64,000 bases of DNA, from contig OX424564.1 of the NCBI GenBank assembly GCA_949152475.1, positions 33,850,165-33,914,164 of the forward strand, read 5' to 3'. This document shows, in pieces, positions 5,621 to 55,686 of the stretch; position 1 is the stretch's first letter, and every line of letters begins with the position of its first letter. The stretch is from Terebella lapidaria. Lineage: Eukaryota; Annelida; Polychaeta; Terebellida; Terebellidae. The position numbers and the translations under genes were made by a program. The notes under the pieces were generated by a model. It had not been told where the DNA came from. It did no database searches and worked only from the letters and a program-made list of their open reading frames with translations.

Positions 5621-5811
5621 TTCAATCCATTTGAAATGGTTTTGAGGTACATGTTGAATTTGTTTTTTTACAGCAGGCAGTCATATATACATCGTGTAAT
5701 GTGGTAAGTTCATATGATTGTTATTCACCGTGGAACAGGTACCAACAGTCGGTATCGAATATATCTAAGAAGTCGTGAATCAAGCAGTGTCACTATTCTT
5801 TGAATAACCAT

Positions 5812-6690
5812 ATTACTATTATTGGAATATATACACGCTCACACACTTTCAAAAGTAACGTCTATCAAAACATTTGAGTTTTCCACTTTGTACACAACTA
5901 CCCCTCATTCCGAATTGAAGTCTCAACTCAAAAACTCATCAATAATTCATTTTTCTCTAAAAAGGGACAACGTCGGTACCAATATATTGTAGTTAAATAT
6001 AATACCGCTTATTTTGTTAAAGGCGACTCTGATGCCCCATACAAATATACTGAAATAGAAGTAGTAAATATCGGTAATTTTCTTATTGAAAATATTGTTG
6101 TGGCATTTGGTGGTCGAACATTTCAACAAACTATTGGTATTCCCATGGGCACAAGCTGTGCACCATTATTGGCAGACCTGTTTTTATACTCATATGAATC
6201 AGATTTCATCCAACATTTACAACGAGGACGTTCTAAACAAACTAACAAGTAATTTTAATTTCACTTTCCGATATATACTAGTAGACGATGTATTGTCGCT
6301 AAATAATCCCCAGTTTGGTGATTATATAGATGTAATATATCCTAAGGAACTTGAAATTAAGAATACTACAGATTCCGCAAATTTTTCCAACTATCTGAGG
6401 TTGGAGATTGATAATGATTCTAGCCCATCAACCAGATTGTATGACAAACGTGATGATCTTTCCATAGTCAATTTCCCTTTTCTAAGCAGCAATATTCCTA
6501 TGTCACCAGCATATGGTGTGTTTGTTTCTCAACTTATACGCTATTCCAGAGCTAATTGCAAATATGAGGACTTTGTTTATCAAAGTGCCCAGCTAGTCTC
6601 GAAATTCTATTCTATGGACGTCATCATGATCTGGTTGATAAATACACCAAATCCATGACTGCCATGCAACTAAATCTATTTTCATATTAA
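5812..6690 (+). pseudogene. Penelope-like element copy 1, RT C-terminal half
   Basis: The translated region carries Penelope-type reverse transcriptase blocks: GIPMGTSCAPLLADLFLYSY (near 6140-6200), then a segment equivalent to FRYIDDVLSLNNP, YPKELEIK, LYDKRDD and PAYGVFVSQLIRYSRA. The same blocks in the same order occur in copy 2 (7931-9500, minus) and copy 3 (63,490-64,000, minus). The 5' half of the ORF is absent and the frame is interrupted, so this is a 5'-truncated, inactive copy. Its 3' tail follows at 6690-6960. RTs of this type place the group with Penelope-like elements rather than with LTR elements or LINEs. No GIY-YIG endonuclease segment is visible in this copy. Confidence 0.8.
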
Positions 6691-6960
6691 TTTTGGGGAA
6701 TTTATTACGGGTGTCACTAGTGTGGCAAGAAATGCTCACTATTTTCGGAACACCTGATTTCACTTCCTGTGGCCATTTTGGGGAGTTCATGAGTTCCTTG
6801 TAATTTTCGTTTTTTCTCATTTCGTATGCCTGATATGACTTTCTGTCCCCGGACTATGAGATTGGATAACGGACCCTGTTTTGGTAGCTCGGAATACTTA
6901 ATACTGGGTATTGATTCTATGTCCATGAGTCAACGAATCGAACAAGGGTCTACTTCCAGT
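6690..6960 (+). mobile_element. 3' tail of Penelope-like copy 1
   Basis: This non-coding tail contains GATATGACTTTCTGTCCCCGG and GGATAACGGACCCTGTTTTG. Further copies lie at 7690-7930 (reverse), 8349-8552 (reverse) and 15,395-15,545 (forward). It always follows the RT C-terminus or stands as a tail-only fragment, so I treat it as the element's 3' untranslated end. Confidence 0.7.
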
Positions 6961-7559: not shown

Positions 7560-7705
7560 CACTCATACCACGGAGTCGGTGTCACTGCTGGCGGACGATA
7601 AATCAGTCCCCGAGGATACCATCAACTCAGTAGCCTTCTGGCTTGTGATCAGGTATTTATGTACTTGTCATATATCTGTTCAATGAGGTTTGTTTCGAAT
7701 AGACG
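7560..7705 (+). repeat. Partial 363-bp (retrozyme-like) unit joined to a Penelope tail
   Basis: CACTCATACCAC.GAGTCGGTG through GTACTTGTCATATATCTGTTC matches the part of the 363-bp unit that lacks the hammerhead-like core. It runs directly into the reverse-oriented Penelope tail at ~7700. This junction is the main evidence that the 363-bp unit and the Penelope-like element belong to one element family. Confidence 0.7.
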
Positions 7706-7930
7706 TGGAATCAATACCCAGTATTAAGTATTCCGAGCAAACAAAACAGGGTCCGTTATCCAATCTCCGGGGACAGAAAGTCATATCAGGCAAACGAAGT
7801 GAGAGAAAACAAAAATGACAGGGAAACTCATGAGCCCCCAAAAATGGCCATTAGGAGGTGAAATCAGGTGTTCCGGAAAGAGTGAGCATTTCCTGCCCCA
7901 CTAGTGGCACCCGTCATGAATTCCCCAAAA
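7690..7930 (-). mobile_element. 3' tail of Penelope-like copy 2
   Basis: Reverse complement of the tail at 6690-6960, ~85-90% alike by eye, making a large inverted repeat around the 7.0-7.7 kb centre. It continues without a gap into the RT C-terminus of copy 2. Confidence 0.7.
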
Positions 7931-9505
7931 TTAACATGAAAATAGATCTAGTTGCATGGCAGACATGGATTTGCTGTATTTATCAACCAGATCATGATAA
8001 CGTCCATAGAATTTCTTAAACGCAGCTATAAGTCTTGGTAAAACATATCCTTGTCGCAGCAGTTTAGAGACTAGCTGGGTACTTCGATAGATAAAGTCCT
8101 CATATTTGCAACTAGCTCTGGAATAGCGTATAAGTTGAGAAACAAACACACCATATGCCGGTGACATAGGAATGTTGCTGCTTAGAAAAGGGAAATTGAC
8201 TATGGAAAAATTGAAATCATCACGTTTGTCATATAATCTAGTTGACAGGTTAGAATCATTATCAATCTCCAACCTCAGGTCTAGATAGTTGGAAAAATTA
8301 GCGGCTTCTGTATGTCCTTAATTTCAAGTTCCTTAGGATATATGACATCCAAATAGACGTGGAATCAATACCCAGTATTAAGTATTCCGAGCAAACAAAA
8401 CAGGGTCCGTTATCCAATCTCATAGTCCGGGGACAGAAAGTCATATCAGGCATACGAAGTGAGAGAAAACAAAAATGACAGGGAAACTCATGAACCCCCA
8501 AAAATCGCCATTAGGAGGTGAAATCAGGTGTTCCGGAAAGAGTGAGCATTTTTTAATCACCAAACTTGGGATTATTTAGCGACAATACATCATCTATGTA
8601 TCGGAAAGTGAAATTAAAATTACATGTTAGTTTCTTAGAACCTCCTCGTTGTAAATGTTGGATAAAATCTGATTCATATGAGTATAAAAACAGGTCTGCC
8701 AATAATGGTGCACAGTTTGTACCCATGGGAATACCAATAGTTTGTTGAAATATTCGACCACCAAATTCCACAAAAATATTATCAATCAGAAAATTAACCA
8801 TATTTACCACATCTATTTCAGTAAATTTGTATGGGGCATCAGAGTCGCCTTTAACAAAATAAGCGGTATTATATTTAACTACAATATAGTGGTACCGACG
8901 TTGTCCCTTTTTAGAGAAAAATGAATTATTGATTAGTTTTTTAAGCTGAGACTTCAGTTCAGAATGAGGTATAGTTGTGTACAAAGTGGAGAAATCAAAT
9001 GTTTTGATAGACGTTACTTTTGAAAGTGTGTGAGCATGTAGATATTCCAATAAAGATTTGGAATTTTTTAATATCCACATTTGGTTTATACCACTTCTAG
9101 AATAGATGGTTTCAGAGTACTTTTGGAGACCCTGTTTAATTTTAGACAATATAACAGTTAATATTTTAGAAGGGCTTTGGTAGAACATGACGCTGAACCT
9201 GAAATATATCTTTGTTTGTGTGGATTTTTGTGCAACTTTGGGATCCAATATAAGTTTGGTAGATTAGAATCTTTACATGAGGTAGTAATACCAAACGAAT
9301 GCAATACAGACACATGATTTGATAAGATATCATGTTTGGGCACGGTAATGGCTTGGTATGTACTATTGGAATTAGTATTGTTGGCAATACCCAGTTCGTC
9401 AAACAGACACTGTATATAGTATGCTTTACAAACAAAAACAACATTATTAGAAGCTTTATCTGCAGGGACAATGACGAACCTTTCTTGAAGTTTCAACAAA
9501 CTATT
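7931..9505 (-). pseudogene. Penelope-like element copy 2, reverse transcriptase
   Basis: Reading 9500 to 7931 on the minus strand gives a near-continuous Penelope-type RT. The order is FVIVPADKASNNVVFVCK (finger block), LYWIPKLHKNPHKQRY, STLYTTIPHSELKSQLKKLI, GIPMGTNCAPLLADLFLYSY, FRYIDDVLSLNNPKFGD, then YPKELEIK, LYDKRDDFNFSIVNFPF, PAYGVFVSQLIRYSRAS and FYGRYHDLVDKYSKSMS. The YIDD box of the active site is present. A ~204-bp copy of the element's own 3' tail interrupts the RT between NPKFGD and DVIYPKE (8349-8552), and the frame is also shifted near 9,200. The copy starts at the finger block, so any N-terminal domain is missing. A 363-bp-type unit abuts its 5' side. Confidence 0.85.
8349..8552 (-). 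mobile_element. Penelope tail fragment nested in the RT of copy 2
   Basis: This piece is nearly identical to 7700-7900, includes the CATAGTCCGGGGACAGAAAG block, and lies in the same orientation as the host copy. It falls between the codons for FGD and DVIYPKE, replacing only a few bases. It is therefore a clean secondary insertion, or a template-switch product, of the same family. Confidence 0.7.
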
Positions 9506-9512
9506 AGTAACT

Positions 9513-9760
9513 ATTTAGAATTTCTAAATTATTTTCATAGGTTGTTGGGCAGTTGTATACCAATTCCATCAGGTGTACAGTAAAACAACTACATTTAACA
9601 CACTGTCTGCCCCTGATGACGCAAGTATGTCTTTGGATAAACTATTTAGTCGGGTTTTGTGTCTATTGCAAAATGTTGTATTTTACGTTTGTTATTGGCA
9701 TCATCAAAATCTGACTGTATTGGTGGTAATAGATTGATACTTACATTAGAAAGTAAAATG
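9513..9760 (+). repeat. 363-bp-type unit (partial) with hammerhead-like core at 9609-9655
   Basis: Matches the array unit at 25,110-26,283 in reverse orientation, from GGTTGTTGGGCAGTTGTATA to GGTGGTAATAGATTGATACT. The core reads GCCC-CTGATGA, then ~27 nt containing TAAAC, then GTC-GGGT. The unit lies on the 5' side of Penelope copy 2 but on the opposite strand to its RT. Confidence 0.7.
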
Positions 9761-11248: not shown

Positions 11249-13311
11249 TTGTATACTAGGCCCATGAACGAAGAGGAAATGCTGTCTTGTGTGGAGCAGC
11301 GTCGAGGCACCATCCTGTCAATCACTCTGACCTCAGTCCAGCCGCTTCGCTTCACGTTTTATCCTCAGCTACTGAGCTTGTTCTTGTGGACGCAGGGCAC
11401 CACCCAAAATGCTTTCAAGTCTCTCAATGCTTTAAATTTAACACAGGGGATCGACGCCGTGAGAGGTCATGTGGACCGACTGGTAGCTGAGAGTGACAGA
11501 GATGTTCGCTCATGGAGAGATCGCTCCAAGGTTGTTAATCAGCATTTTAAACTTATAATAATAAAACTATGGTCTAAAAATACTGAAAATGGGTCACATG
11601 TACATAAATGTGTGAAATGTTGCTTTTGCAGGAATGTGTGCCCGATGACGAGATGCAGGATACTTCGGGAAGAAGTAGACGGAGGCTCTCGTTCAGAGAT
11701 GATGCTTCTTCCAAGAAACAAGTGTGAGTTTCTCGTACTGGTACATGGTCATACACCCAGCCACCTACTCCCAGGAAATTGTACATACAACAACTCACAC
11801 AAACATACATTGCACTAATACAATGCTTTGATAACTTTCGGTCGTGTAAATATTTTTGTTGCAGGGGTTACAGCTTAGGTTTCGATAACACGCAAAAGAA
11901 AAGAATGTCCGTGTGAAACACCAGGGTTCCGAGCGAGGCAACGATTTCCTTATGATGTCCTGGTGTTACTCCGAGGAGCACAGGACAAAGAGCCTTCAAC
12001 TGTACGACACGCTCACCACTACAGCGGTCGACCTGCCCGCCGTGGCTTTCCTGACAACTGTGAGCCTAATGTCATGTACATGATCTAATGAAAAAAACCC
12101 AGTAATGTATCAGTAATATAAGGAACATACCTTTATATATATTTATAGCATATTTATGGGTTGCTTTTCTCCTAAGGCTGATGACTGGGACATGATAAAG
12201 AGAACCATGGTACATGTTGTCTCCAACATCCTTGTGGACAACGTGCCATGGTTGGCTAACCTCAGGAAACATCTTCGTCCCCACCAACGTCACGCCATGT
12301 CAGAGGGGATGGGGAACCAGTCAAACGTCATTAACCTGGGCGCGCTTTCGGCCAACCAGTCATCTACATCAGGGGTAATTGAGGTGCTCAACCACCTCCT
12401 GCAGTATGTCCCCGAGGGGGGTACACCCCAACGAGTTGTGGTCAACGGCGACCAGCTAAGCGTGGAGAAAACCACTCACGCCAAGAGAGCCCGGGTAGGA
12501 GAAAACACCAGGAGGAACAAGCTTGACTGTTTTGTCGAGAATCCCCAGGAATTTCATGAAGGAGGCCTGATGTATATACACACGCAATACTTTATCGTTG
12601 TATTTTGAGATGGTGATATTGATACATAATTTATGTGTAATTTATCTTGATTACTTTGAAATTGATTCAGGACACAATGGACACATTCTTCAGTGGGACG
12701 AGCGAACGCTGTATAATGAAAAAGTCCGCCATACAACGTTAGCGTCTAACGTGATGGATAATTTCCAGCACGTATGGCATTTTATCCAGGTTAATATACC
12801 TGTTGATGTCATTGTTAGCACTTTGGAAATTAACAAGTTCGAACAATGATTAATAGCATTATGGGTTCCTCTATTATACTACATCGAATTGGTACTCAAA
12901 TATGTGTTTGTTTTCACAACAATTCCAATTCGTAACGAAAGGTTACACCGTACTTCTGTTATTGAAACTGACATCGGCAGAAAACATCAACAAAGTTCCG
13001 GCAACGTTTGATGCTAGAGGTGTATGTATCAACCTATTACCGTTGATAACCAAATTTTGATGATGCCAATAAAAAACTTAATATCAACAACTTTCAGAAT
13101 AGAAACAAAGCCCGACCAAACATTAATATCTGAAGCCACACTGGCATCATCAGGGGCAGACAGTGCGTAATTATAGTTGTTTCTACTGGGCTCTGTAGAG
13201 GAGAAGAAGACCTGGCTGAACAGACCCTGGCTGCAAGAGATGTTATGTCGAGAGCCCAAAAGGCTCCAGGCTCCTCGTTCACCAACTATCCTTTCTGCAA
13301 GTGTCCTGAAG
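11249..13311 (+). CDS. DUF6589-like gene, partial, about six exons
   Basis: Candidate exons with good splice signals are 11,249-11,530 (donor AAG|GTTGTT), 11,632-11,723 (acceptor TTGCAG, donor GTGAGT), 11,865-12,059 (TTGCAG, GTGAGC), 12,149-~12,569, 12,671-12,789 (TTCAG, CAG|GTTAAT) and 13,199-13,311 (CTGTAG, AAG|GTATGT). The fourth exon reads KADDWDMIKRTMVHVV, NVINLGALSANQSSTSGVIE, then VVVNGDQLSVEKTTHAKRAR. The block GDQLSVE...AKRAR is the signature I associate with DUF6589, a large family in invertebrates and fungi, often suspected to be of mobile origin and without a known reaction. Only the N-terminal and central part is visible; the C-terminal half of the domain is not found, and a tandem array begins just after the last donor. 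Exon phases across exons 3-4 do not obviously match, so either my boundaries are off or the gene has decayed. Introns argue against a processed copy. Confidence 0.6.
13025..13190 (-). repeat. Old, diverged 363-bp-type unit in a DUF6589-like intron
   Basis: Similar to the array units but much more diverged. The minus strand keeps GCCC-CTGATGA and GTC-GGGC (13,110-13,156) while the segment between them has changed. It ends just before the acceptor of the last visible exon. Confidence 0.65.
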
Positions 13312-14989: not shown

Positions 14990-15300
14990 AATGTAAGTAT
15001 CAATCTATTACCACCAATACAGCCAAATTTTGATGAATCCAATAACAAACGTAAAACACAACATTTTGCAATAGAAACAAAGCCCGACCAAATACTTTAT
15101 CAAAAGACACACTGGCGTCATCAGGGGCAGACAGTGTGTGAAATGTAGTTGTTTCTACTGTACACCTGATGGAATTAGTATACAACTGCCCAACAACCTA
15201 TGAAAATAATTTAGAAATCCGAAACTAATCCCATGGAATAGATATATGACAAGTACATTAGTACCTAATCACAAGCCAAAAGGCTACTGAGTTGATGGTA
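14990..15300 (-). repeat. 363-bp-type unit with hammerhead-like core at 15,082-15,128
   Basis: Nearly full unit in the same orientation as the array at 25,110, from AATGTAAGTATCAATC to AAAAGGCTACTGAGTTGATGG. The core boxes on the minus strand are intact (GCCC-CTGATGA and GTC-GGGC). Confidence 0.75.
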
Positions 15301-23934: not shown

Positions 23935-24966
23935 AGGCGACGGACGGTGAAAAAATAATATTCAAGATTTTTTCCTTATATGATAGAGTCGTATGAGTTA
24001 TAAATGATAGCAACAATATTTTCAATGAATATGCATCCTGTTGCCCTGTGGGCGCTCTGTAGTGGAGACTCCCTTCAAGAAGCTTCCAGCGAATGATGTG
24101 ACGTCACGATAGGTAAACCTCTGACGTTTTGGTGGCAAACGGGCGCACGATCCTAGTCCGACATACAACATTCAAATGCAGATTGCGAAAATTCTGCCGC
24201 AGTAATCCCCAATTTTTTTTTCATTTTTTACATGTGTACAATCCACTGGACATGTATACTAAACTTTATGAGTTTTTACCGTATGGATTCTTTTCTGGGG
24301 CTGTTAATTCAATTTTAAATTAATAATATGGCGGATTTCGAAGGATAGCTAAACTCTTTCGAAAGTGTTTTGCAACAAATCCAACGCGGTGATCCCCAAT
24401 TTTTATTCAACGATTTCAATCTACACATATCACTTGATAATCAGACAAATTTTGAGGAAATTCTGATGAGCACATATTTACCTGTGGGTTATAACTCATC
24501 ACCCCTCTTGAAATATTTTCCGATTAGAGACCATGTTAGGGCATGGACTGTGCATATTTTTCAGGTTAACAATATATTTCACCATAACCATGATAACAGT
24601 GTCATCTATATACTCTCCTGAACATGGTGGCAAATTTTCATATCCTTCTGCCCAAAAATGGGTGTGTCGCAAATATTTTATGAACGCCATCTCATCGCAT
24701 GAAAATTCTTTGACCTCACCGCGGTGATCATAGCAGCCGCGGAAAACGTACAGGTATCTATACAGCGGGATGGAAAACGTAATGACCTATCGTGACGTCA
24801 CGATTCTTTTACCTGAAACACACGGCATGGCTGGGACACTGTGAATAGCATTTTGATCGTGCCAGACGCGCATTATATCGATGGAATTCGTACAAAATTT
24901 CGTAGCATATCATATGAACATAAGCAGTATATTTGTGCAAGAAAATTTTTTTACTGTCCGTCGTCT
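23935..24966. mobile_element. TTAA-flanked non-autonomous DNA element
   Basis: The left end AGGCGACGGACGGTGAAAAA and right end (reverse complement) AGACGACGGACAGTAAAAAA are ~21-bp inverted repeats, with TTAA directly outside at 23,931-23,934 and 24,967-24,970. A second inverted pair lies inside at ~24,090-24,120 and 24,780-24,812 (GTGACGTCACGATAGGT and its complement). No transposase was seen in ~1.03 kb. Ends of AG type with TTAA resemble those of the MITE at 164-432, though the sequences differ. Confidence 0.7.
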
Positions 24967-25000
24967 TTAATAATTGTTTGAACCATCTACTCTAATCTTG

Positions 25001-25116
25001 AGTGTATGTTTGTAAACACTTGACATGTATCAGAATATTCAACAGAAGTGGATGTAAGTGTGTATGTTTGTAAACACTTGACATGTATCAGAATATTCAA
25101 CAGAAGTGGATGTAAG
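25001..25116 (+). repeat. Direct duplication (~57 bp) at the array edge
   Basis: GTGTATGTTTGTAAACACTT through CAACAGAAGTGGATGTAAG is present twice in tandem immediately upstream of the 363-bp array. Confidence 0.8.
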
Positions 25117-26283
25117 TATCAATCTATTACCACCAATACAGTGAGATTTTAATGATGCCAATAACAACGAAAAATACAATATTTTGCAATAGAAACAAAG
25201 CCCGACCAAATAGTTTATCCAAAGACACATTGGCGTCATCAGGGGCAGACAGTGTGTTAAATGTAGTTGTTTCTACTGTACACCTGATGGAATTAGTATA
25301 CAACTGCCCAACAACCTATGAAAACAATTTAGAAATCCGAAACAAACCCAACGGAACAGATATATGACAAGTACATAAGTACCTAATCACAAGCCCGAAG
25401 GCTACTGAGTTGATTGTATCCTCGGGGACAGATTTAACGTCCGCCAGCAGTGACACCGACTCAGTGGTATGAATGTAAGTATCAATCTATAACCACCAAT
25501 ACAGTGAGATTTTAATGATGCCAATAACAACGAAAAATACATAATTTTGCAATAGAAACAAAGCCCGACCAAATAGTTTATCCAAAGACACACTGGCGTC
25601 ATCAGGGGCAGACAGTGTGTTAAATGTAGTTGTTTCTACTGTACACCTGATGGAATTAGTATACAACTGCCCAACAACCTAAGAAAACAATTTGGAAATC
25701 CGAAACAAACCCAATGGAACAGATATATGACAAGTACATAAGTACCTAATCACAAGCCCGAAGGCTACTGAGTTGATGGTATCCTCGTGGACAGATTTAA
25801 CGTCCGCCAGCAGTGACACCGACTCAGTGGTATGAATGTAAGTATCAATCTATTACCACCAATACAGTGAGATTTTAATGATGGCAATAAAAACGAAGAA
25901 TACAATATTTTGCAATAGAAACAAAGCCCGACCAAATAGTTTATCCAAAGACACACTGGCGTCATCAGGGGCAGACAGTGTGTTAAATGTAGTTGTTTCT
26001 ACTGTACACCTGATGGAATTAGTATACAACTGCCCAACAACCTATGAAAACAATTTAGAAATCTGAAACAAACCCAATGGAACATATATATGACAAGTAC
26101 ATAAGTACCTAATCACAAGCCCGAAGGCTACTGAGTTGATGGTATCCTCGGGGACAGATTTAACGTCCGCCAGCAGTGACACCGAATCAGTGGTATGAAT
26201 GTAAGTATCAATCTATTACCACCAATACAGTGAGATTTTAATGATGCCAATAACAACGAAAAATACAATATTTTGCACAATAT
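25110..26283 (-). repeat. 363-bp tandem array, three full units plus a partial, with hammerhead-like cores
   Basis: ATGTAAGTATC starts at 25,110, 25,473, 25,836 and 26,199, an exact 363-bp period. Unit identity is ~97% by eye, and the last unit breaks off near 26,283. Each full unit carries on the minus strand a 47-nt core at 25,200-25,246, 25,563-25,609 and 25,926-25,972: GCCC, CTGATGA, ~27 nt with TAAAC, GTC, GGGC. In a hammerhead, CTGATGA is box 1, GAAA box 2 and GTC the cleavage triplet; GCCC/GGGC would form stem I. Box 2 is non-canonical (TAAAC instead of GAAAC) and stem II is weak (CCAG/TTGG with adjacent mismatches). Short tandem units with hammerheads are known as retrozymes and as Penelope pseudo-LTR parts in animals; assigning this unit there is inference. 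Confidence 0.65.
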
Positions 26284-26329
26284 ACAATATTATTCCCGAA
26301 GTGTTGTACATTGTTAAGAAAATAGATTG

Positions 26330-26830
26330 CTATTTATGGAGTGAACAAATAATATGTATCAAAAGTCTCAGTGTATCATTTGCAAAGGGGTGAACAAGGT
26401 AATGAAAACAGAATACCATCCGAGGAGTGAACAATGGTATGTATAAATATTGTCAACAGAAGAAGTCCATAATAATGTGCTAGGTGGTGAAACAGAATAC
26501 TACACATGGAGTGAACAATGGTAAGTATCAAAATTGTCAACAGAATCTGAAGTGGATTATTTCCAAAGGGAAGTACAAGGTTGTGAAACAGAATACCACA
26601 CATGGAGTGAACAATGGTATGTATCAAAATTGTCCACAGAAGTGGATTATCTCCAAAGGGATGTGCAAGGTTGTGAAACAGAATACCACACATGGAGTTA
26701 ACAATAGTATGTATCAAAATTGTCAGCAGAAGTGGATTATTTCCAAAGGGAAGTACAAGGTTATGAAAACAGAATGGACGTACTATCCAAGGAGTGAACA
26801 ATGGTATGTATCAAAATTGTCAACAACAAA
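26330..26830 (+). repeat. Minisatellite, ~90-bp unit, about five copies
   Basis: GTGAACAATGGTA-type starts occur at 26,427, 26,511, 26,607, 26,697 and 26,793 (spacing 84-96 bp). The array abuts the 3' end of the minus-strand gene that follows. Long frames on both strands here are due to the repeat period. Confidence 0.8.
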
Positions 26831-26879
26831 AAAAAACTTTCCAAACGACTGTCACTTGCCATTGTTTATGTGGAGTCCT

Positions 26880-29800
26880 GTTTCACCATCATCAATTACA
26901 TTTTCCATCCCATTTTCTTCAAGCTCCACTGGCGGGCCATTCAAACAGGTAATGCCTTTGCATTGGCCACAAGCTGGAGTGAAGTGGAGCCCATTTTTGC
27001 GGCATGTACATGCTCGTGTGTCCACCACAATTGCATCACATTATTTTTAGCAGTTGATCTGGTGCTGATGGCTGAGATATTTTGATGGGATATAAGACAG
27101 AAGGAGTCGCAGTTCAACGCCACTCTTCTGCTGGCAGCTCATTACCACACCATGCCTGCACCTGATGGTATGCACGATGACTATAGAAATGGCTGCATTA
27201 GATGTTGGTGGAAGTTTCTCTGGTGATACGTATTGTGAAGCTGTAGCAACTTTCTGCTGAAACTTCTCCACTCTTGCTGAGTCAGGGCTCTGAGATGTTG
27301 TGCAACCATAGATGATCAAAAATGCATCTTCGCAAGCTTTTTCTATCTCCACTTTAGATGACAGCGGAGACATGAAGATTGAGCCACAACGCTCCAGTTT
27401 TACATACTTCTTGAGTACTGACACCTTGTCAACTCATAAGGTCTAGACGTGGTGTCACACCCACTGGAGGCCTGCAGAAAGAGTAGGGCTTCGGAAAGTA
27501 ATGGATCGAGACCCTTTGCCAGATCGATGACAGAAATTCTTTGTTTGGATGTCACCATGTACAGATCTTTGTCAGCCATATTTATGTGATGTGTTTGTAG
27601 TTGGAGCACATAAGAATCTTCTGCAACGACAACTGTTGGCTTCTCTTTGGCATGATTACATGCTGACATGCATATCTTATAGTCGGCATCACCTTCACCA
27701 TGTTCAACGGCAATATCTGCTCTTGCCATATGCTCTGCCAGTAGATTGATGAAAGCCTGCTTGTTGGCTTGATTGGCGAGAAAGCTCTTCTTGGTCATGG
27801 TTACATGCATTTAGGGTAAAACCGACACTTCAGCACCCATATCATTCCCCATCCTGCGACGATGGGCTTCATCTTTGGTGCTTGATCCATTATAGCCATC
27901 AAACACAACCAAAGCATGATGGTACGATTGCTTGATGCATCGGACGTACATTTCACAGATCTCTGAGTAGCTTGCATTTTTTTGGCCACGAGAACTTGTG
28001 GAGCAGATTACCGCCATCAATGATGTATTGCATACTCGTGGCACAGGATGTCACGACCCTGCTTTCTGGAACAAGTTTGAGGAGATGGTGAACGATTTCT
28101 GATTTATCCCCGATCCCATGAACACATGATTGTGAAAGAGTGATGGTGGGAAAGAGCACATCTCATGTCGGAAGAGTTCTGGAAGTGGAATGTCACCATT
28201 GGAACCCATGAGAAGGGGACGCTGATATACACGCTGTGAATCCTTTTCAATGTGGTCACCAGAAGACGTTTTTACATGAATAGCCAATGCCAGGGTTTAA
28301 CTTGATTCTTCTGAGAAAACTTGTTTTCTTCAACACTTTGTCTGGCCATGGAATTAACAATCTGCTTTCCAATACTTTGGGCCTGATCTGCATTCACGGA
28401 TCATTTGCAACCAAACCAGTTCTCTCCTTCATTGAATTCTCGAATACACCACGCTCTAGGAATACTTGTAGAATCTTCTGGATATCATTCATGTCACGAC
28501 GTATCCGGGTTGGTGCTAACTCACGATGCCCATAAGGTGTTTCTACAGATAAACGAGCTATTGCGAAAATGGACTGGCTTATGCTGGCACACATCGGTCT
28601 TGAAAGCAGGAAGAGGAGTCGAGTGCTGTCACTGAATCTGCGTCCTTGGGTCAGTCCCCCAGTTGACTTGATGCTGGCCATCAGAACTTGCTCTATGAAA
28701 AGGTCTGTGAAAATTCCTGACCACGCATCGTCACTTCTTCTGACCGGGAAGAGGTCATTCATGAATGCCCTACGTACATCTGGATGGGTTTGTTCTAGAT
28801 CAAGCATACGTGGAATGAACAACGCCAAAGACTTTGTGTAGTTGTTCTTGTTGCAAGACAAGGGTGCATCTCACGCAAAGACTGCAAATACAGAGGCCAG
28901 CAACCCCAACGAGCAGAACGAATGAAAGATCTCAGAATGCGCACCATATCTTGATATTGTAGCCACAATCTTGCAGTACCATAGCTTTGCATTGATGCAC
29001 GCCAGTCTTCTAGAGCAGTATGGATGGTGCCTATTGCATCACTTTGTAGGGCTTCACCCATTGTCATGTTTCCACTGTGCACATCTTGTTTAAGCTGAGA
29101 AATATCAGACAGCAGATCTGCATGTGGATTTTCTTCAGTCTGAGACTGTGGTGATATTCCAGGCAGGACACATTCAGCCTGTTACCAGGAAATACCAGAC
29201 TGCCTGTTTGTGTCAGACCCAATTCGAAAGGATTCTCCTGGAGTGCATTCCATCGACTCGGTGAGTCTCTGACTTCGATTGGAGGTGCCAGGCTTGCTTT
29301 TAAAGTGTCCAGTCTGTACCATACTATCAGATGTTCAAGAGGTTCTCGGTTGATCAGATTCATTGGTCTTGCTTGACTCGTCTGGTGTTGATGGTTGATT
29401 TTCACCACTTGTCAAAAGGAAAGGTGTTGACCTAGAGGAGTTGGTACCCTTCAAATCCGGAATAGGCAGGTTAATGGCTCAACATCTTGTCAACCGAACC
29501 CTCAGCATAGACCTGCGCTAGCATTTCCTTCAAACCAGATCATCCCATGATAACTCCAATGGCTCCGGGCATGCTCATCTCTGTGAGGAATCCGCCAAGT
29601 AACAGAACGATCTTTCGCAAACGACTTGTTGTGGGTTGATCTTTGATAACCATCAGAGCGATCCAGTACAGTTGCTGATCAAAGGTGATGATTGGAGTGC
29701 AATTGTGCTTTTCTGCTAGGTCGCTCATGTACTCCAGCGTTGATCGAACACATGTGGGGCTGCTTGGTGACATGTCAATCATTGGCAAGAAGAGTTAGTT

Positions 29801-36599: not shown

Positions 36600-38084
36600 A
36601 TAAGCTCAATGTGCAGTGCACAAACTAAACAAGTCGAAGCCCGGCAAGGCGGAAGGAGTTGCAAGTCAAGTTTCGCCTCTTAGAAGAACAGCACAAGATA
36701 ATTATGCAACAAATGGAGCTGCATGGTCGCCATGAACAGGAACACTTGAAACTTAAACACCAGAGGGAACTACTGGCAGCTCAGTCAGAAGTCGAGCAAG
36801 CTAGGGCCCGTGAAGAAGTGTTTGATTCAGCTGTAATGCAAGAAAATGAGAAAATAGAACAACAGCGAGAGTTTCTTACTCAAACAGAATTTCCTCGAGA
36901 TAGTGTGCCTCTAAGTGCAGCAGCACATGAAAGTCGATACAGTGTGCCAATAATGTCAATGCAGTCTACTAGTGAAGCACAGCTCACTAGTGTGAAAGAA
37001 CCAGATACAGCAACACAAGTCTCACAATATCGCCCACCTGCGCCTGACATGCCTCAAAACTTACGTCACTGCAACAAGATCGGGTTTTGACAGAAATATG
37101 GCGCAATCAGATTGGCACAAACCCCAATTATCAGCCACCCCGAGACTGGCGTGACAAGAGGACTTTTCTTTCAGCATCAGAGCCAAGTAGTTTCAAGCGA
37201 GAGCCTTCATACATCGCAGCTGGCCATCAAGCACCCATATCTACAGCAGCACGGTGGTCAAATACACTAGATGGAAGTTTGCTGCAATTAATGAATGCTC
37301 AAATGAACGCACCTCAGTCAAGTACATGGAGCATCTCTCAATGCAACAGCGACAGAATGCACTATCTCTTCAGCTGCCAAATTCAGATGTACAGATATTT
37401 TCCGGAAATCCTGTTGAGTATTGCTCATTCATGACATCATTTGAGAATCTCATCGAAGAAAAAACACAGAATAACAGCACTCGTCTTCATTACCTCATAC
37501 AGTACACGAGGGGAGAAGCTCAAACGCTGATGCGAAGTTGCCTAACCATGCATCCTGATCAGGGCTACACAGAAGCGAAAACACTGCTTAAGAAGCATTT
37601 TGGAAAGGACTTTCACATTGCCACAGCCTACATTGACAAAATCACCAAAACTGCACCAATAAAAATTGATGACAGGAAAGCTGTACATAACTATTATGTG
37701 CAACTCTTAGAGTGCTACAACACGCTACAGAACATTGGTTATGCAAGCAAGATAGAAAATCCTGACAGTCTGAAAGCAGTTATTGGCAATCTTCCGTACG
37801 ACATCAGGAAAAGATGGCGCAACCAAGCGGACTGGTTCTCAGAGATGGAGAATAGGGAAGTGACATTTGCAGACATTGTACATTTTTTTGAGAAGGAAGT
37901 AGGAGCAATGTCGCATCCTGTGTTTGGTGACATCTCCAACAAGAAAGACAACAGTCACGAAAAATCAAAACGGAAAAGTTTCTCAGGCCAGAAAGGCTCC
38001 AGCTTCTCCACCAAAATGACAGAAAGTGAAGAGATGAAAAATACAGATGGAGTCCGTCCCAACAGTGTATCATGTGTGCTGTGA
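36600..38084 (+). pseudogene. BEL/Pao gag-like region (fossil)
   Basis: The first part is Glu/Gln-rich and predicted coiled coil (EEQHKIIMQQMELHGRHEQE). The second has the capsid-like block seen in BEL/Pao gag proteins (FSGNPVEYCSFMTSFENLIE, LHYLIQYTRGEAQTLMRSCL). Confidence 0.75.
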
Positions 38085-38089
38085 AAGCA

Positions 38090-40080
38090 AGATCACAAGA
38101 TAGACACATGTGACACTTTCATCAAGAAAACATATGAAGAGCGAGTAGACTACGTCAAAAAGAGAGGCCTCTGCTTCAATTGCCTGATCCCACGACCCAG
38201 ACTGAAAGACTGCAGGAAAGCTCCCATGTGCACACATTGTTCCTACAAGCACCACAGTCTTCTACGCCGACCAGATCCACAAGACACCTGGGGTACTGTG
38301 GAAGTCGTGGAGGGCCGCAACGGATTTGTTGACGGTGGATCATCAGTCTGTCTTCCAATATTGCCTGTGAAAGTAAGAGCAAAAATGGTGGAAACTACAT
38401 GGTCACCACATATGCCTTCCTGGACAGTGGCTCACCTCTACTTTCTGCTCCAAGAATTTGATGTCTCAACTTGGAATCCAAGGCAGAGAAGTACAGTTTT
38501 CTCTTAGAACTCTGACAGGTGAAAATCATCACACAGAAAGCCAGGTCACAACTCTAGAGGTTTCAGACTTGACTGGAGAGTACTTGATCGAGCTACCTAC
38601 TGTTTTCTCCAGAGAAACTCTACCTGTGAACCTAGAAGATGCCCGAAGTAGAACAGATATTAGAAGATGGCCACACTTGGAAGGAATTGACATTCCAGAT
38701 GTCAACACCCTGTCAGGTGTTGGACTTTTGATCGGCAATGATGTACCACTCGCACTAGAGCCGCAAGAAATAAGAAAGAGCCAAGATGGAGGGCCATATG
38801 CCGTTCAAACACTCCTGGGATGGATAGTGAATGGCCCGCTTGGTCGTTCACATACAATACCAAAGCACACAGTGAACTTTGTCAAGACAAGACTAGAGGA
38901 TCAGTTCAGAGAGTTCTGCAACAGAGAATTCAATGACTGCATATCTAGCTCAGATGTAGCCATATCACAAGAAGATGAACAAGCACTCAAGATTATGCAA
39001 GACACTGTGAATTTCCAAGATGGCCATTATGAGCTGGCTCTGCCCTTCAGAGAAAACCCATGTATGCCACACAACAAACCAATGGCGGAACATCGACTGA
39101 ATCTCCTGAGAAAACGACTTTTGAGAGATCCGGACCTGTGTAACAATTACCAGGGATTCATGGACACACTGTTAGAAAAACATTATGCTGAAGAGGTTCC
39201 TAGTGATTAACTTGACAGAGCAGATGGCATGGTGTGGTACCTGCATCACCACTCGGTAACACACCCGAAGAAACCAGAAAAGGTTTGCATTGTTTTTGAC
39301 TGCTCAGCCAAGTACAGAGGTATCTCACTGAATGATCGACTGCTTCAAGGCCCCGACTGGATAAACTCGTTAGTTGGTGTACTGACAAGATTCCGCCAAG
39401 CTCTAATCGCTATGACATCTGATATCGAAGCTATCTTACACCAAGTGCGGGTGATCCAGTCACACCGCGACACTCTAAGATTTCTCTGGTGGGAGAATGG
39501 CAATTTGGATCAAGATCCTAAAGTGTACCGTATGACAGTACACCTGTTTGGAGCCGTGTCATCGCCAAGTTGCTGCAACTTTGCTTTGCGTAGAACAGGT
39601 GAAGATAATAGATATGACTTCGATGAAGTAACACAGTTTTGAACAATTTCTACGTAGACAACTGTCTGAAGTCAGTCAAAGATGAAGCAGCGGCAAACCA
39701 CCTCTTCGAGAACCTGACTAAAATGCTATCAAGAGGAGGATTTCACCTCACTAAGTGGACCTCAAACAACAAGACTGTACTGGACAGCATTCCGCTTGAA
39801 GAACGAGCTCCTGGTGTAAAGATGGACATAAATGATACTGAACGAACACTGGGCGTGCAATGGAATATCAGGACTGACAAATTCATCTTCAAGATAGCCT
39901 TACAAGATAGAAAAATGACAAGACGTGGAATATTGAGTGTGATGAGTTCAATATTTCACCCATTAGGCTTCATTGCACCAGTAGTGCTACCGGTCAAGAT
40001 GCTTCTTCAGGAGCTATGCAGAAAGGGAATAGACTGGGACGAGAAAATTCCAGAAGAACACAAGAAGATTTAAAAGACTT
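38090..40080 (+). pseudogene. BEL/Pao protease and reverse transcriptase region (fossil)
   Basis: A zinc-knuckle-like and aspartic-protease-like stretch precedes BEL-type RT blocks: [47 protein letters not shown] and GVQWNIRTDKFIFKI. The order fits BEL/Pao pol. Confidence 0.75.
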
Positions 40081-40132
40081 GGATCTGTGATGTACAGCAG
40101 TTAGAGAAATTCTTTATGAACAGATGTATGGA

Positions 40133-40307
40133 AGTAAGTATCAATCTATTACCACCAATAGTCAGATTTTGATGATGCAAAAAACAAACGTAAAATAGAA
40201 CATTTTGGAATAGAAACAAAGCCCGACCAAATAGTTTATCCAAAGACACACTGGCGTCGTCAGGGGCAGACAGTGTGTTAAATGTAGTTGTTTCTACTGT
40301 ACACCTC
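40133..40307 (-). mobile_element. 363-bp-type unit nested in the BEL/Pao element
   Basis: From AAGTATCAATCTATTACC to TTTCTACTGTACACCT, about half of the unit, inserted between the RT and RNase H regions. The hammerhead-like core lies at 40,221-40,266 on the minus strand. The insertion is younger than the BEL/Pao copy. Confidence 0.8.
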
Positions 40308-40309
40308 AG

Positions 40310-42360
40310 AAACCAAGACAAGAGAATTGCATCATTTCAGTGACGCATCAGAGTGTGGTTATGGGGCTGTCTCATATCTGCGGCTATTGAACAGGAATGG
40401 GGATTTCGTCCAGTGCAGCTTCATGCTCGGGAAGTCAAGACTCAGCCCTCTGAAAGCCACGAGCATCCCAAGATTAGAGCTTTTTGCAGCTGTCCTGTCA
40501 CTTCGTCTCGACAAGATGTTAAGAAGTCACCTTGAACTGCCGATACACAGAACAGTGTTCTTGAGAGACAGCACATCTACCTTGAAGTACATCAGAAATG
40601 AAGACGAGAGATTTCTTCAGACTTTCGTTGCCAACAGAATTGCAATAATCAGAGATGGATCTGACAAAGAAGCATGGCGATGGGTGGGTTCAAAGGATAA
40701 CCCTGCAGACGACGCATCCAGAGGTCTGTCGGCAGGAGCTGTCATCAATGGTGGAGCACGATGGTCAACGGGACCGGGTTTCTTACGTCTCCCGGAGAGA
40801 AACTGGCCTATAGAACCCAACATCACGCCTGTGAATCAAGACGATCCAGAGATAAAACGACCTAAGACTGCATGTGCAACGTCCGTCTCAATGAACACAC
40901 TGGATGAGATGATATCAAGATTCTCTTCATGGTACAAATTGAAGAAATTTGTAGCCTGGATCCTGCGTGCCAAGCAAAATCTGAAAACAAAGTCACATGG
41001 GAAAACTCACAAGGACACGGTTAAGCCTCTGACTAATGAAGAGGTCAAGCAAACAGAAGTGGAGAACTTGAAATATGTTCAGCAGCAGAGTTTCCCGCAA
41101 GAATGCCGAGGTGTGGTCAAGTCCTCAAGTGTTATACGTCAGCTAGATCCAACAAGAAATGCAGTGGGTGGTCGCCTTCATCAATCAACCACCCTTACAA
41201 CTGAAGGGAAACACCAGATGATCCTTCCGAAGCATCACCATGTAGTCGACCTGATAGTTCGGCACTATCATGTGATGTCTGCTCACTCTGGTCAAGAACA
41301 TGTACTGTCACGCATCCGAGAACGATTTTGGATAGTACATGCAAGAAACGCTGTGCGCAAGGTTCTGGGAAACTGTTTCAACAGCAAGCGCCGAAATGCA
41401 CCAGCAGGATGACAGAAAATGGCTGACCTGCCTGAACAGAGAGTCACGTCCGACAAGCCTCCCTTCACCTACTTTGGGGCCGATTATTTTGGACCACTAT
41501 ACATCATGAGAGGACGAAGCCAAGTAAAACGCTATGGGTGTGTTTTCACATGTATGACAACAAGAGCGATCCACATAGAAGTTGCCCATTCACTAGACAC
41601 CTCATCATTCATACAAGCACTTCATCGTTTCATATCTCGAAGAGGACAGCCCAATGTAATCAGGTCCGACAATAGCACAAATTTCATCGGGGCACAACGT
41701 GAACTTAAGGAAGCCATCACGGAGTGGAATCAAGCCAAGATTGATGAATTTCTGAAGCAACAAGATATCCAGTGGATATTCAACCCACCTACAGCCTCAC
41801 ACATGGGCAGCATCTGGGAAAGGCAAATAAGATCCATTCGCAAGATACTGTATAACCTAGTAAACCAACAGACACTCGACGATGAGGGACTAGCAACACT
41901 CCTCTGTCAAGCCGAAGCGATTGTCAATGCTCGCCCTATCACCTCAGTGTCCACAGACGCAAGAGACCCTGAGCCACTGACTCCCAATCATTTGTTGCTC
42001 CTCCGAGCAGGACCAAATCTACCACCAGGTAGCTTCAACAAGAACGATAACTACAACAGAAGGAGATGGCGACAGATCCAATACATGGCAGATGTTTTCT
42101 GGCGTAGATGGCAGCGAGAGTACCTTCTAGGCCTACAACAGCGACAGAAATGGCTGACACCAAGCAGAAATTTCAAAGTGGATGACATTGTGTTGGTCGT
42201 CGAAGACAATAGCCCTAGAAATGTGTGGCCATTGGCTAGGATAATCAACACTTACCCCGGAAAAGATGGCCTTGTCAGGACTGCACAAGTAAAGATGAGG
42301 AACTCCTCCCTGATCCGACCGATATCAAAGCTGTGTCTGCTGGAAGCCGCATGTGATTGA
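40310..42360 (+). pseudogene. BEL/Pao RNase H and integrase region (fossil)
   Basis: HHFSDASECGYGAVSYLRL marks RNase H. LIVRHYHVMSAHSGQEHVLS marks the integrase zinc-binding region, and [12 protein letters not shown] with [20 protein letters not shown] marks the catalytic core. The BEL/Pao C-terminal DUF5641-like segment ([20 protein letters not shown]) ends near 42,360. Confidence 0.8.
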
Positions 42361-45635: not shown

Positions 45636-46055
45636 GTATGGATGTAAGAATCAATCTATTACCACCAATAGTCAGATTTTGATGATGCCAATAACAAACG
45701 TAATATAAAACATTTTGCAATAGAAACAAAGCCCGACCAAATAGTTTATCCAAAGACACACTGGCGTCATCAGGGGCAGACAGTGCGTTAAATGTAGTTG
45801 TTTCTACTGTACACATGATGGAATTAGTATACAACTGTCCAACAACCTTTGAAAATAATTTAGAAATCTGAAACAAACCCTATGGAATAGATATATGACA
45901 AGTACATAAGTACCTGATCACAAGCCAGAAGGCTACTGAGTTGATGGTATCCTCGGGGACAGATTTAACGTCCGCCAGCAGTGACACCGACTCAGTGGTA
46001 TGAATGTAAGAATAAATCTATTACCACCAATAGTCAGATTTTGATGATGGAAATA
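45636..46055 (-). repeat. 363-bp-type unit, one full plus a partial, core at 45,731-45,776
   Basis: Same sequence and orientation as the 25 kb array. A second unit starts near 46,007 (AATGTAAGAATAAATC) and stops after ~45 bp, so this is the remains of a tandem pair. Confidence 0.75.
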
Positions 46056-52824: not shown

Positions 52825-55686
52825 TCAAACAACAGCTTGCGCTACGACCAGCGGACCCAGTCTAAATCTGGACGACTGGTCCTGAAGTTCGGCAGCATTG
52901 GACAGATAGAACCCGATGAATGTCGTAGAATTAGTCCACATTCCAGCCCTCACGATATATTCCAACGGAATATTCGACCTGGCCGCCAAAGACATCGAGA
53001 TGTGTCGGATTTGGTGGGACGATATTTTGTAAGTGACTCGATCGTCAGCACCTGATTCCGCATAGACAGTCCTCACTACAACCTTCACCCATCGGGATAG
53101 TGTAGCTGTGGAGATATCCGTAGCCCTGTTAGGCTGATAGGAAATAAATAATCGCTTGCGATCTTTCCTGATCGATCTGGTACGATCGATGTAGATTTTC
53201 AGCGCTCTTACCGGACACAATAGAGCGTCCGGCTCATTCCGTCCTACGTAACCGCCCAGTGACGGAATTACGATAGGGGAGAACGCTTTCCCGCCCTCAA
53301 CTGCAGTACGTGTTTTAGGCATAAAATCACGTACTGGGTATAAGGAAACGGACCCATCCGCGCCAAATGCGACTCGCGATACGTCGATCGCCGCGACATC
53401 TGAGCGTCTTCGACCACTTGCTAGCATAACTAGCAGGAAAGTCTTAAGAGTTAACCTCTGCAAGGAAACTTCCTTGAGAGGCTCCCAAGGTGCTTTAGTA
53501 AGACAATATAGCACAAAAGCCATGTCCCAATCCGGTAGAGTAGGAACTCCGCGTGGCCTTTGCGTCCTAAAGGACGCCAAGAGATCAGCAAGGATACGAT
53601 TATTAGTTAAATCGATCCCCCTAGCACGGAATACAGGGCCCAGCATGGACCTGTATCCCTCGATCGTAGTAGGCTTCAAATTAAGCCTATCAAAGAGATA
53701 GCAGAGAAAGTCTAGCACTGCATTCAGAGGGGCAGAGAGCGGATCAATGCGCCTTCCGTTACACCAACGTACGAATACTCTCCATTTAGCCTCATACGTT
53801 TTAGAGGAGGATCTCCTATTCTTTCTCGCGAGATGTACGGACACCTGCTGAGAAAATCCTGCCTCCTGGAAGGATCGCTCGATAGCCTCCACACGTGTAA
53901 TTTGAGCACGTGGACGGAATCGTGAAATATATCCCGCCCCGGTTGCTTCAGCAACCTGTCCTCGATCGGGAGAACCCGTGGTACATCGATCAGGAGGGAC
54001 AGTAGCAGGGGGAACCACGCCTGCATCGGCCAGCATGGCGCCACCAACAGAATCTCGCACTGAGACCTGGCTACTTTGTGCAGCACTTCTGTTAGGAACC
54101 GAGTTGGCGGGTACGCATACCCGAACATCCCGTCCCACGACTGAGACATCGCGTCCACAGCCAGTGCCTCGCTCTCTGGCAGAGGTGAGAAGTAGACCGG
54201 GAGCTTGTGATTCCGAGAGGTTGCGAACAGGTCTATGTTCGGTGTCCCGAACGCCTGACAAACGCGCCGAAACACCCCCGGATGCAGACTCCACTCCGTG
54301 CCTATGATCTTGTCCGGTCTCGACAGAGCGTCCGCTAGGACATTCCTGTGACCCGGCAGGTGCCTCGCCCTGATAAACAGACGGTACTTGAAGGCAAACC
54401 TGATCAGACACTCGGCCTCCAAACAAAGCTGACTCGACCGAGTTCCACCTTGTTTGTTTATGTGCGCCACTACTGTGCTGTTGTCTGTGAAGACCAACCA
54501 CTTCGTCCCTGGGGGACTCTGAGGCCCCCAGATCTCGAACGCACGTCTCACCGCTCGCAGCTCTAGGACATTGATGTGCAACGCCCTCTCGCTCGTGTTC
54601 CACACCGCAGAGAGTTCGTGCTCGTCCATATGAGCTCCCCAAGCCAATTCTGACGCATCGGTGAAGAAGGTCCGATCGGGCAGATACTCCGCGAGTGGCA
54701 TCCCTCGGAAAAGATTCCGATGGTCCCGCCACCAATGCATTGCTTCCCGAGCACGATCGTCCACCGATACGACTTGGTCTAGTCGATCGGTGAGGATCCG
54801 CCATTGCAACGCTAGACACCATTGAATGGGTCTGAGGAAGCACCTGCCGAACGGCACCTGTTTCTCCATCGACGCCAACAGACCGATGATGGACAGAAAC
54901 TGTCGAGCTGTGATCGACGACTGCGTCAGCGCGACCTCCATCGCCGCAATCGCCTTGAGAACTCTCTTCCGTGGAGGAAGAGCTACTCCTCGCTCTAGAT
55001 CGTAATCTACCCCGACATACTCGAACCTCTGTGTCGGGGACAGATGAGACTTCGCCCAATTGGGGATCCAGCCGAGGCTGGTCGCCAACCTGAGGACGAA
55101 CCCGGATTGCTCTATAGCCTGAGACGGGGAGTCGGCTATGATTAACCAATCGTCGATATAATGGTGGAATTGAATTCCAACCGATCGAAACCTGGCTGCC
55201 ATCGTCCTTACGATACGGGTGAACACGTAAGGGGCGGTGGCTACTCCAAAAGGAAGTACCCTGAACTGATACACCGAACCTTTGAAGGCGAACTTGAGGT
55301 ATCGCCGATCGGCTGGGTGTATTGGCACATGTAAGTACGCGTCCTTGACGTCGATACTGACTGCCCACTTCCCCTTGGACAGAGCTTTCTGGACGGAAAG
55401 CGCCGACTCCATCTTGAACCTGGGTATGATCAGGAATTTGTTGAGGTTTGACAGATCGAAAACGGGACGCCACCCGCCTGTCTTTTTCGGCACTAGGAAG
55501 ATGAGAGAATAGAATCCTCTCTCGTCCTTGACCACCTCGATCGCACGTTTCTCTAGCAACTGCTGCACCTCGTGCTGCAGAAGCTGAAACTTTTCCCGAT
55601 CGCCGGGCACAGGGAAGAACCACGCTTTGGGTCTGATCGGTGGTTTTCCAGCCTCCCATCTGAAGGTGAGACCGAACTTCACCCAT
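52825..55686 (-). CDS. DIRS1-type tyrosine recombinase frame
   Basis: The frame is 953 codons. Its 5' part overlaps the RT frame in another phase and is probably not translated as such; the recombinase proper occupies roughly the last 390 residues (about 54,000 to 52,825). It has FVRWCNGRRIDPLSAPLNAV (SAM-like N-domain), MLASGRRRSDVAAID (first catalytic Arg region), SSHQIRHISMSLA and AGMWTNSTTFIGFYL (HxxR/W/Y-type C-terminal motifs). Tyrosine recombinases of DIRS elements integrate the circular cDNA. Confidence 0.8.
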   Translation of the reverse strand: MGEVRSHLQMGGWKTTDQTQSVVLPCARRSGKVSASAARGAAVARETCDRGGQGRERILFSHLPSAEKDRRVASRFRSVKPQQIPDHTQVQDGVGAFRPESSVQGEVGSQYRRQGRVLTCANTPSRSAIPQVRLQRFGVSVQGTSFWSSHRPLRVHPYRKDDGSQVSIGWNSIPPLYRRLVNHSRLPVSGYRAIRVRPQVGDQPRLDPQLGEVSSVPDTEVRVCRGRLRSRARSSSSSTEESSQGDCGDGGRADAVVDHSSTVSVHHRSVGVDGETGAVRQVLPQTHSMVSSVAMADPHRSTRPSRIGGRSCSGSNALVAGPSESFPRDATRGVSARSDLLHRCVRIGLGSSYGRARTLCGVEHEREGVAHQCPRAASGETCVRDLGASESPRDEVVGLHRQQHSSGAHKQTRWNSVESALFGGRVSDQVCLQVPSVYQGEAPAGSQECPSGRSVETGQDHRHGVESASGGVSARLSGVRDTEHRPVRNLSESQAPGLLLTSARERGTGCGRDVSVVGRDVRVCVPANSVPNRSAAQSSQVSVRDSVGGAMLADAGVVPPATVPPDRCTTGSPDRGQVAEATGAGYISRFRPRAQITRVEAIERSFQEAGFSQQVSVHLARKNRRSSSKTYEAKWRVFVRWCNGRRIDPLSAPLNAVLDFLCYLFDRLNLKPTTIEGYRSMLGPVFRARGIDLTNNRILADLLASFRTQRPRGVPTLPDWDMAFVLYCLTKAPWEPLKEVSLQRLTLKTFLLVMLASGRRRSDVAAIDVSRVAFGADGSVSLYPVRDFMPKTRTAVEGGKAFSPIVIPSLGGYVGRNEPDALLCPVRALKIYIDRTRSIRKDRKRLFISYQPNRATDISTATLSRWVKVVVRTVYAESGADDRVTYKISSHQIRHISMSLAARSNIPLEYIVRAGMWTNSTTFIGFYLSNAAELQDQSSRFRLGPLVVAQAVV

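Follow-up and report, generated by a model that had tools for sequence, protein, structure and literature searches.

In the genome of the annelid Terebella lapidaria, a stretch of 64,000 nucleotides (the window) contains a tandem array that represents a single insertion from a dispersed and abundant family with a unit of ∼364 bp. The reading that we favour, with a little more than even confidence, is that the family is a non-coding retroelement of ∼364 nt, copied from minus-strand RNA by reverse transcription that runs for several laps from a fixed start, with a Penelope-like element as the helper. This reading starts from what can be observed directly in the genome, namely the edges of the copies, their dispersal, one empty insertion site, and the homogeneity of some arrays.

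Tandem Repeats Finder (TRF) placed the array at 25110–26277, with a period of 363, 3.2 copies, 97% matches, and 0% indels (Table 1). An earlier note on this DNA had described an array of exactly this period from 25110 to 26283. The period and the start are borne out, the right edge lies at 26277, and 363 holds within this array but not as a rule of the family, since most of the listed copies elsewhere measure 364. Compared in pairs, the full units are identical at 354, 354, and 351 of 363 positions (96.7–97.5%), the partial unit agrees with unit 1 at 79/79 positions, and unit 1 is one base short of the 364-base family consensus. With all units at 363 bp, this level of identity, and one private variant fixed in all three, the array looks older. 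Nothing obvious is encoded inside it: the longest stop-to-stop stretch is 83 aa, with no reverse transcriptase (RT) or endonuclease, so it lacks the RT ORF of a Penelope-like element. A protein-coding repeat (363 = 3 × 121) was rejected on the same ground, and the minus-strand frame is broken or shifted in the divergent relatives that were translated. The GC content of the bin 24001–26000 is 0.384.

Other repeats adjoin the array. A perfect 58-bp direct duplication spans 25002–25117, its second copy ending within the first 8 bases of the array, and reflects either a later duplication across the array edge or target letters that resemble the end of the element. To the right, a 90-bp minisatellite occupies 26370–26825; judging from CAACAGAAGTGG, which is common to it and to the left flank, the array may have been inserted inside this minisatellite.

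The genome searched for further copies comprises 761.6 Mb in 438 contigs. At least 185 scored matches to the 363-bp unit were found on many contigs, a lower bound because 40 of 2,623 first-look candidates were scored, and those listed are mostly 364 bp long and 96–98% identical. The 26-bp junction between units has 2,093 exact matches (1,072 forward and 1,021 reverse), and one tandem array on contig C14 spans ∼12.6 kb. A related subfamily forms tandem pairs 362–363 bp apart (199 exact pattern matches, 100 of them listed); the search pattern required CTGATGA and GTCGGGC, so the presence of both there is no evidence. Inside the window, seven further places bear the unit; two of these are apparently parts of a single copy interrupted by a nested element. 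The stretch 36629–42360 contains retroelement ORFs that match DUF1759 and DUF5641 and, below cut-off, an integrase core, and the unit copy at 40134–40306 lies among them. A GC-rich stretch at 52825–57945 holds long, partly overlapping ORFs of 1001, 871, and 704 aa, presumably DIRS-like from their look; the 871-aa ORF matches RVT_1.

Table 1. Features of the window that belong to the unit family or interrupt it.
Feature	Position	Strand	Remarks
Tandem array, three full 363-bp units + 79 bp	25110–26277	-	TRF, edge mapping
Unit 1	25110–25472	-	TRF, unit comparison
Unit 2	25473–25835	-	TRF, unit comparison
Unit 3	25836–26198	-	TRF, unit comparison
Partial unit, 79 bp	26199–26277	-	Ragged 5' end (RNA sense) of the insertion
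Fixed edge ATGTAAGTATC	25110–25120	-	Putative reverse-transcription start (3' end of the copied RNA)
Outer 12-bp helix, 3' arm, unit 1	25187–25198	-	Encloses hammerhead-like letters
Outer 12-bp helix, 5' arm, unit 1	25267–25278	-	Encloses hammerhead-like letters
Hammerhead-like letters, unit 1	25200–25246	-	Box 2 non-canonical
Hammerhead-like letters, unit 2	25563–25609	-	Box 2 non-canonical
Hammerhead-like letters, unit 3	25926–25972	-	Box 2 non-canonical
Copy of about one unit (9746–9514 and 7700–7563)	7563–9746	+	Split by Penelope-like element
RT ORF of the Penelope-like element in the split copy	8553–9263	-	
Old truncated relative	13021–13188	-	79% identical, fixed edge kept
Truncated copy	14991–15300	-	Fixed edge kept
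Truncated copy	40134–40306	-	Fixed edge kept; directly ahead of retroelement ORF
Copy slightly longer than one unit	45642–46055	-	Fixed edge kept
Copy of ∼1.5 units	61705–62247	+	Fixed edge kept

The copies have one edge in common. In 25 of the 26 copies with a visible edge, the plus-strand left edge lies at unit position 1–3 (position 1 in 19 copies, position 2 in two, and position 3 in four), the exception being position 299 at locus L045. These copies come from 19 of 20 sampled loci, the twentieth (L038) being cut by the locus end, and from seven places in the window, the split copy being taken as one; the 20 loci are the best matches to the unit and are biased to young copies. The base just before the fixed edge is A in 16 copies, G in six, T in three, and C in one. 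Right edges vary widely, and one is common to L038 and L046. A family profile chained 44 copies or arrays in the 328,698 bases scanned, including weak matches down to about 12–15 bits, and 36 of them end at a single 3' position in the minus-strand sense. Two of the remaining eight are explained, L038 by its locus end and the other as a half of the copy that was split; the six real exceptions are L035, L045, two in L052, and two in L078. Loci sampled for other reasons also contain copies with the common end (L012, L063, two in L064, L070, L077, and L079); both copies in L078, a locus likewise sampled for other reasons, lack it. The 5' ends of 34 copies, not all independent given that L063 and L064 are near-duplicates, are spread and not uniform (KS p = 0.001). 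At the would-be cleavage site the ends are not clearly gathered: three of the 34 fall no more than 5 nt away from it, against 1.0 expected.

On the minus strand, these edges become a constant 3' end and a 5' end truncated at varying points, a pattern that reverse transcription would leave, and we infer from them that the minus strand is the RNA sense of the array. A narrow literature search of titles and abstract openings yielded no description of such a footprint, with a fixed start, ragged ends, and homogeneous arrays. A Helitron-like origin was rejected by reasoning, as there is no fixed second end. The tandem organization, with one array of the length seen on C14, would be expected of an ordinary dispersed satellite spread through DNA circles and unequal exchange without an RNA step, and exchange can yield homogeneity within arrays. 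Random re-insertion of circles would, however, give random phases instead of one edge in 25/26 copies, and this edge is also found on single truncated copies, so that we regard this explanation as unlikely. LINEs and SINEs, too, are marked by a fixed 3' end together with 5' truncation. These features would thus fit a SINE-like element copied by a LINE, whose arrays would stem from multimeric transcripts or from subsequent duplication; this is quite improbable in view of the very short duplication at the one empty site (see below), the lack of a T-run (an A-tail in the RNA sense) ahead of the fixed edge in the flanks listed, and the most homogeneous arrays, which are without the polymorphism expected from a multimeric transcript of an old array.

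Homogeneity was assessed in 62 units from 22 arrays, 12 of which contain at least two full units. On average, units are 98.3% identical when they come from one array and 97.0% when they come from different arrays. Among the 12, the five with the highest homogeneity (L037, L042, L043, L044, and L051; 15 full units) have units that are 99.7–100% identical inside an array. These five carry 2, 3, 3, 4, and 5 array-fixed variants, respectively, and 15 of the total of 17 were also seen in other arrays. Their five polymorphisms are all private, with none common to other arrays, a count that is weak alone in arrays picked for homogeneity. The other seven multi-unit arrays have 120 private polymorphisms and 38 that were also seen elsewhere (two in the window array, five each in L035, L034, and L049, nine in C14, two in L045, and ten in L052), which indicates a contribution from mixed templates, age, or subsequent exchange. 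If a multimeric transcript of an old array were copied, its polymorphism should come along, whereas several rounds on one circle would bring none. The homogeneous arrays thus support copying from a single unit-length, perhaps circular, template; we go no further than support because the arrays were selected as homogeneous, a state that gene conversion or unequal exchange could also produce.

The L044 array is inserted in a Penelope-like element, and the uninterrupted site (AACTAGATCT/ATTTTCATG) is present in all seven other copies read. At this one empty site the target duplication is 0–2 bp, and the ragged end carries about 10 nt that belong to neither the unit nor the target. In 24 flank pairs, the longest string that both flanks have in common is 5.2 on average, compared with 4.6 in mismatched pairs, and strings of ≥7 occur in 5/24 pairs, compared with 5.4% of mismatched pairs. 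Target duplications are at best short and irregular, and may exist in some copies. An empty-site search for the copy at 40134 returned only the window itself.

The Penelope-like element has the same terminal letters in 7/7 copies. Five copies have five different 5' truncation points, and no common flank string of ≥7 was found in the five truncated copies. This edge signature, a common 3' end and varied 5' truncation, is the same as that of the unit family; by eye, no 3' sequence common to the two was noticed. The RT fragment, which we take to be Penelope-like from its motifs, matches RVT_1 just under the cut-off (E = 2.4e-6; 27.8 bits, cut-off 29.6). A PDB search with it returned one match, to an unrelated enzyme (E = 0.056), and in NCBIfam it had a weak match to a group II RT, well under the cut-off. 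The window contains two broken Penelope-like copies in opposite orientation, at 5800–6960 and within 7563–9746. The latter lies inside a unit copy, and ATTC stands at each of the two junctions; the flanking unit pieces read as one split copy, and the unit was therefore rejected as a pseudo-LTR of this element. Separately, locus L033 holds a long inverted repeat (2168–2277) with sub-cut-off matches to several microRNA precursor models.

The favoured reading would involve an RNA intermediate, a circular template, and a helper enzyme. The RNA of the element would be the minus strand of the window, and reverse transcription would begin at a fixed internal point, opposite unit positions 1–3. The reverse transcriptase could then go round one unit-length template several times, the simplest such template being a circular RNA, until cDNA synthesis stops at a variable place, and the cDNA would be inserted with little or no target duplication. 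Arrays with a fixed edge on one side and a ragged edge on the other would result from such a start and stop. The enzyme would probably come from a co-resident Penelope-like element. Several observations weigh against this reading: the polymorphisms that seven multi-unit arrays have in common with others, the exceptions among the edges (L045 included), the non-uniform 5' ends, a circular consensus fold not notably better than shuffles, and the fact that no 3' sequence in common with the Penelope-like element met the eye. Excerpts of the literature contain related observations. In a lizard Penelope-like element, reverse transcription begins at fixed internal RNA sites (excerpt of PMC11167929). 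The Penelope-like elements with pseudo-LTRs and hammerheads treated in the same excerpt resemble the unit family in their fixed internal start and tandem arrangement, whereas the unit is non-coding, without RT or endonuclease. In the retrozyme model, circular templates give cDNA of more than one unit, and the model would produce the constant 3' end, the variable 5' ends, and the homogeneity of arrays seen here (PMC7761336, as excerpted). Penelope-like elements are named as strong candidate helpers of retrozymes in part of PMC7229834, and the portion of PMC7761336 consulted describes retrozyme repeats as having no conserved motif that reveals the helper.

Retrozymes are defined by a hammerhead, and the units contain hammerhead-like letters. 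GCCC-CTGATGA-(18 nt)-TAAAC-(6 nt)-GTC-GGGC is present in 3/3 full window units, in the order that the earlier note had given; the strand, which it had left unnamed, is the minus. CUGAUGA occurs in 60 of the 62 units in total, and the window units have a GUC as UH cleavage site together with GCCC/GGGC, which can form stem I as had been proposed. The same note had called box 2 and stem II non-canonical, and this is confirmed: box 2 reads UAAA for GAAA, and by inspection stem II does not abut both boxes, its first two positions being C.A and G.G. Position 12 is T in 56 of 62 units, A in one, and G in none, with the pattern unmatched in five. Exact forms number 4,727 for UAAAC and 17 for GAAAC genome-wide, and the related subfamily has GAAAC in one of the 100 places listed among its 199 matches. 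G12 is the general base of the hammerhead according to an excerpt of PMC6155905.

Covariance models point the same way. Rfam gave no match in the whole window at gathering level, and the check with its hammerhead families that the earlier note had suggested found none in the array even at E ≤ 10 (six matches on 24500–27200, 0 hammerhead). As a modest positive control, the type I hammerhead model RF00163 matched 6/10 comparison loci (selected for a hammerhead pattern or a weak hit), all six (20.4–28.1 bits, E 0.0078–2.7) below the 34-bit cut-off and L053, L055, L061, and L071 unmatched. It matched 0/4 loci holding the unit or its relative. Genome-wide searches at E ≤ 10 returned 22 matches for RF00163 and 2 for RF00008, none above cut-off, from 73 and 68 scored candidates, respectively. 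A strict canonical-hammerhead pattern occurs at 30 places in the genome, compared with seven for the reversed control; in the 20 of these loci examined it was never inside a unit match, and in L063, L064, and L070 unit-related stretches lie ≤1 kb from it. Our own hammerhead descriptor gave the unit stretch a best score of 16, taking GATA as box 2 (summed by hand, UAAA in that place likewise gives 16), and the hammerhead-like stretch of L067 a score of 20. Among 400 dinucleotide shuffles of the consensus unit, three reach 16 and none is higher; the hammerhead-like letters are uncommon by chance, but not unique. A plus-strand hammerhead was rejected, as the descriptor scan found nothing there. 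Permuted hammerheads that would draw on the GAAAC in the outer helix were considered by inspection, and their stems do not form.

In comparison with the type I hammerhead (RF00163), the unit thus has CUGAUGA, GUC, and the closing stem I, but not the GAAA box, a core-abutting stem II, or a covariance match. Because box 2 is UAAA, G12 is missing, and Rfam gives no hammerhead match, the catalytic core, as judged from its letters, is not that of a hammerhead, and the unit is not a member of that family. The non-canonical hammerhead-like domain in each unit is probably not a working hammerhead, and the hammerhead-like core that the earlier note described in every unit is not confirmed as that of a hammerhead.

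Hammerhead-like sequences of other kinds were encountered elsewhere in the genome. On contig C1 (100823780–100833305, L055–L060), a 1,899-bp repeat carries a canonical-looking hammerhead, CTGATGAGCGTTGCAGGACGCGAAACCGGTC; it is tandem up to the contig end at 100,833,644 and is also found on the small contigs C31 and C84, with a length of 1,898 bp on C84. L055 additionally carries a perfect 76-bp × 13.4 array. Tandem arrays of 121–134 bp lie near 6/16 scanned loci with hammerhead patterns or weak hits (L009, L010, L011, L061, L068, and L071). L017–L030 make up a dispersed family of 14 loci, mostly 89–100% alike over 2–3 kb, and an identical weak type I hammerhead match (20.4 bits) recurs in every one of them.

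The hammerhead-like letters are enclosed by an outer 12-bp helix. In an alignment of 10 distinct rows, made without L049 and L035 and from copies related to one another, 97.4% of the cells of this helix and of GCCC/GGGC are standard pairs, and two changes affect both sides of a pair, each of them in the same old copy (L052). An equally high figure was reached by 8 of 500 shuffles, in a control that is not a probability. In divergent copies (<93% identical), blocks 1–20, 41–50, 81–100, and 121–140 are kept at 0.87–0.96 and blocks 21–40, 61–80, and 101–120 at 0.66–0.77, in a post hoc grouping with ∼5–10 rows per block, some of them near-duplicates. On folding alone, z is −1.61 in the window unit and −0.02 in the 79% relative. 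Folded as a circle, the consensus is not notably better than shuffles, with z = −1.24 on the minus strand (61% of bases paired in the minimum-energy fold) and −0.87 on the plus strand. The junction hairpin is not significant, since 49 and 28 of 200 shuffles fold equally well. A conserved, non-canonical RNA fold in the unit is possible on these data.

The same data bear on whether the family could be a true metazoan non-LTR retrozyme, in which a divergent hammerhead cleaves, perhaps as a dimer or with help from a protein, and makes circles. The regular presence of CTGATGA, GTC, and GCCC/GGGC, the pairing of the two helices, and the better conservation of the blocks with these parts (a post hoc observation) would all agree with it, and a Penelope-like hammerhead is reported to cleave only with protein (PMC11167929). 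The U at position 12, the rarity of GAAAC, the lack of an Rfam hammerhead match, and the weak folding z-scores count against it, and we hold it to be very unlikely. We give a slight chance to a reading in which the 12-bp helix, GCCC/GGGC, CUGAUGA, and GUC without GAAA would be a new type of self-cleaving or circle-forming RNA and the element a retrozyme without the canonical core, its minus-strand domain having descended from, or converged on, the hammerhead.

Metazoan non-LTR retrozymes, as described by Cervera and de la Pena (PMC7229834, in excerpt), are like the present family in being dispersed, non-coding tandem units of 150–450 bp (about 350–390 bp in mussel, ∼364 here), in their low GC (<50%), and in their co-resident Penelope-like elements. 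Multi-unit cDNA from RNA circles has been proposed for them, and such circles may exist here. They differ, in the same excerpt, by a canonical type I hammerhead in each unit, which the present family lacks, and by target duplications of >4 bp, when present, compared with 0–2 bp at the one empty site here. The earlier view of the array as retrozyme-like survives in that it appears to be a tandem, non-autonomous retroelement, given the junction matches, the edges, and the homogeneous arrays; the hammerhead part fails the covariance check, the first of the refuting outcomes that the note had set. Retrozyme-like architecture is supported by these sequence features, and the hammerhead-based definition does not fit.

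The family bears on how metazoan retrozymes re-enter the genome. It offers a readable footprint in many copies, with one start point, ragged ends, and some arrays that look as if copied from a single template. This footprint would make the model of multi-lap copying, and that of a Penelope-like helper, testable from genome data. The family also raises the question of how circles may form without a canonical hammerhead.
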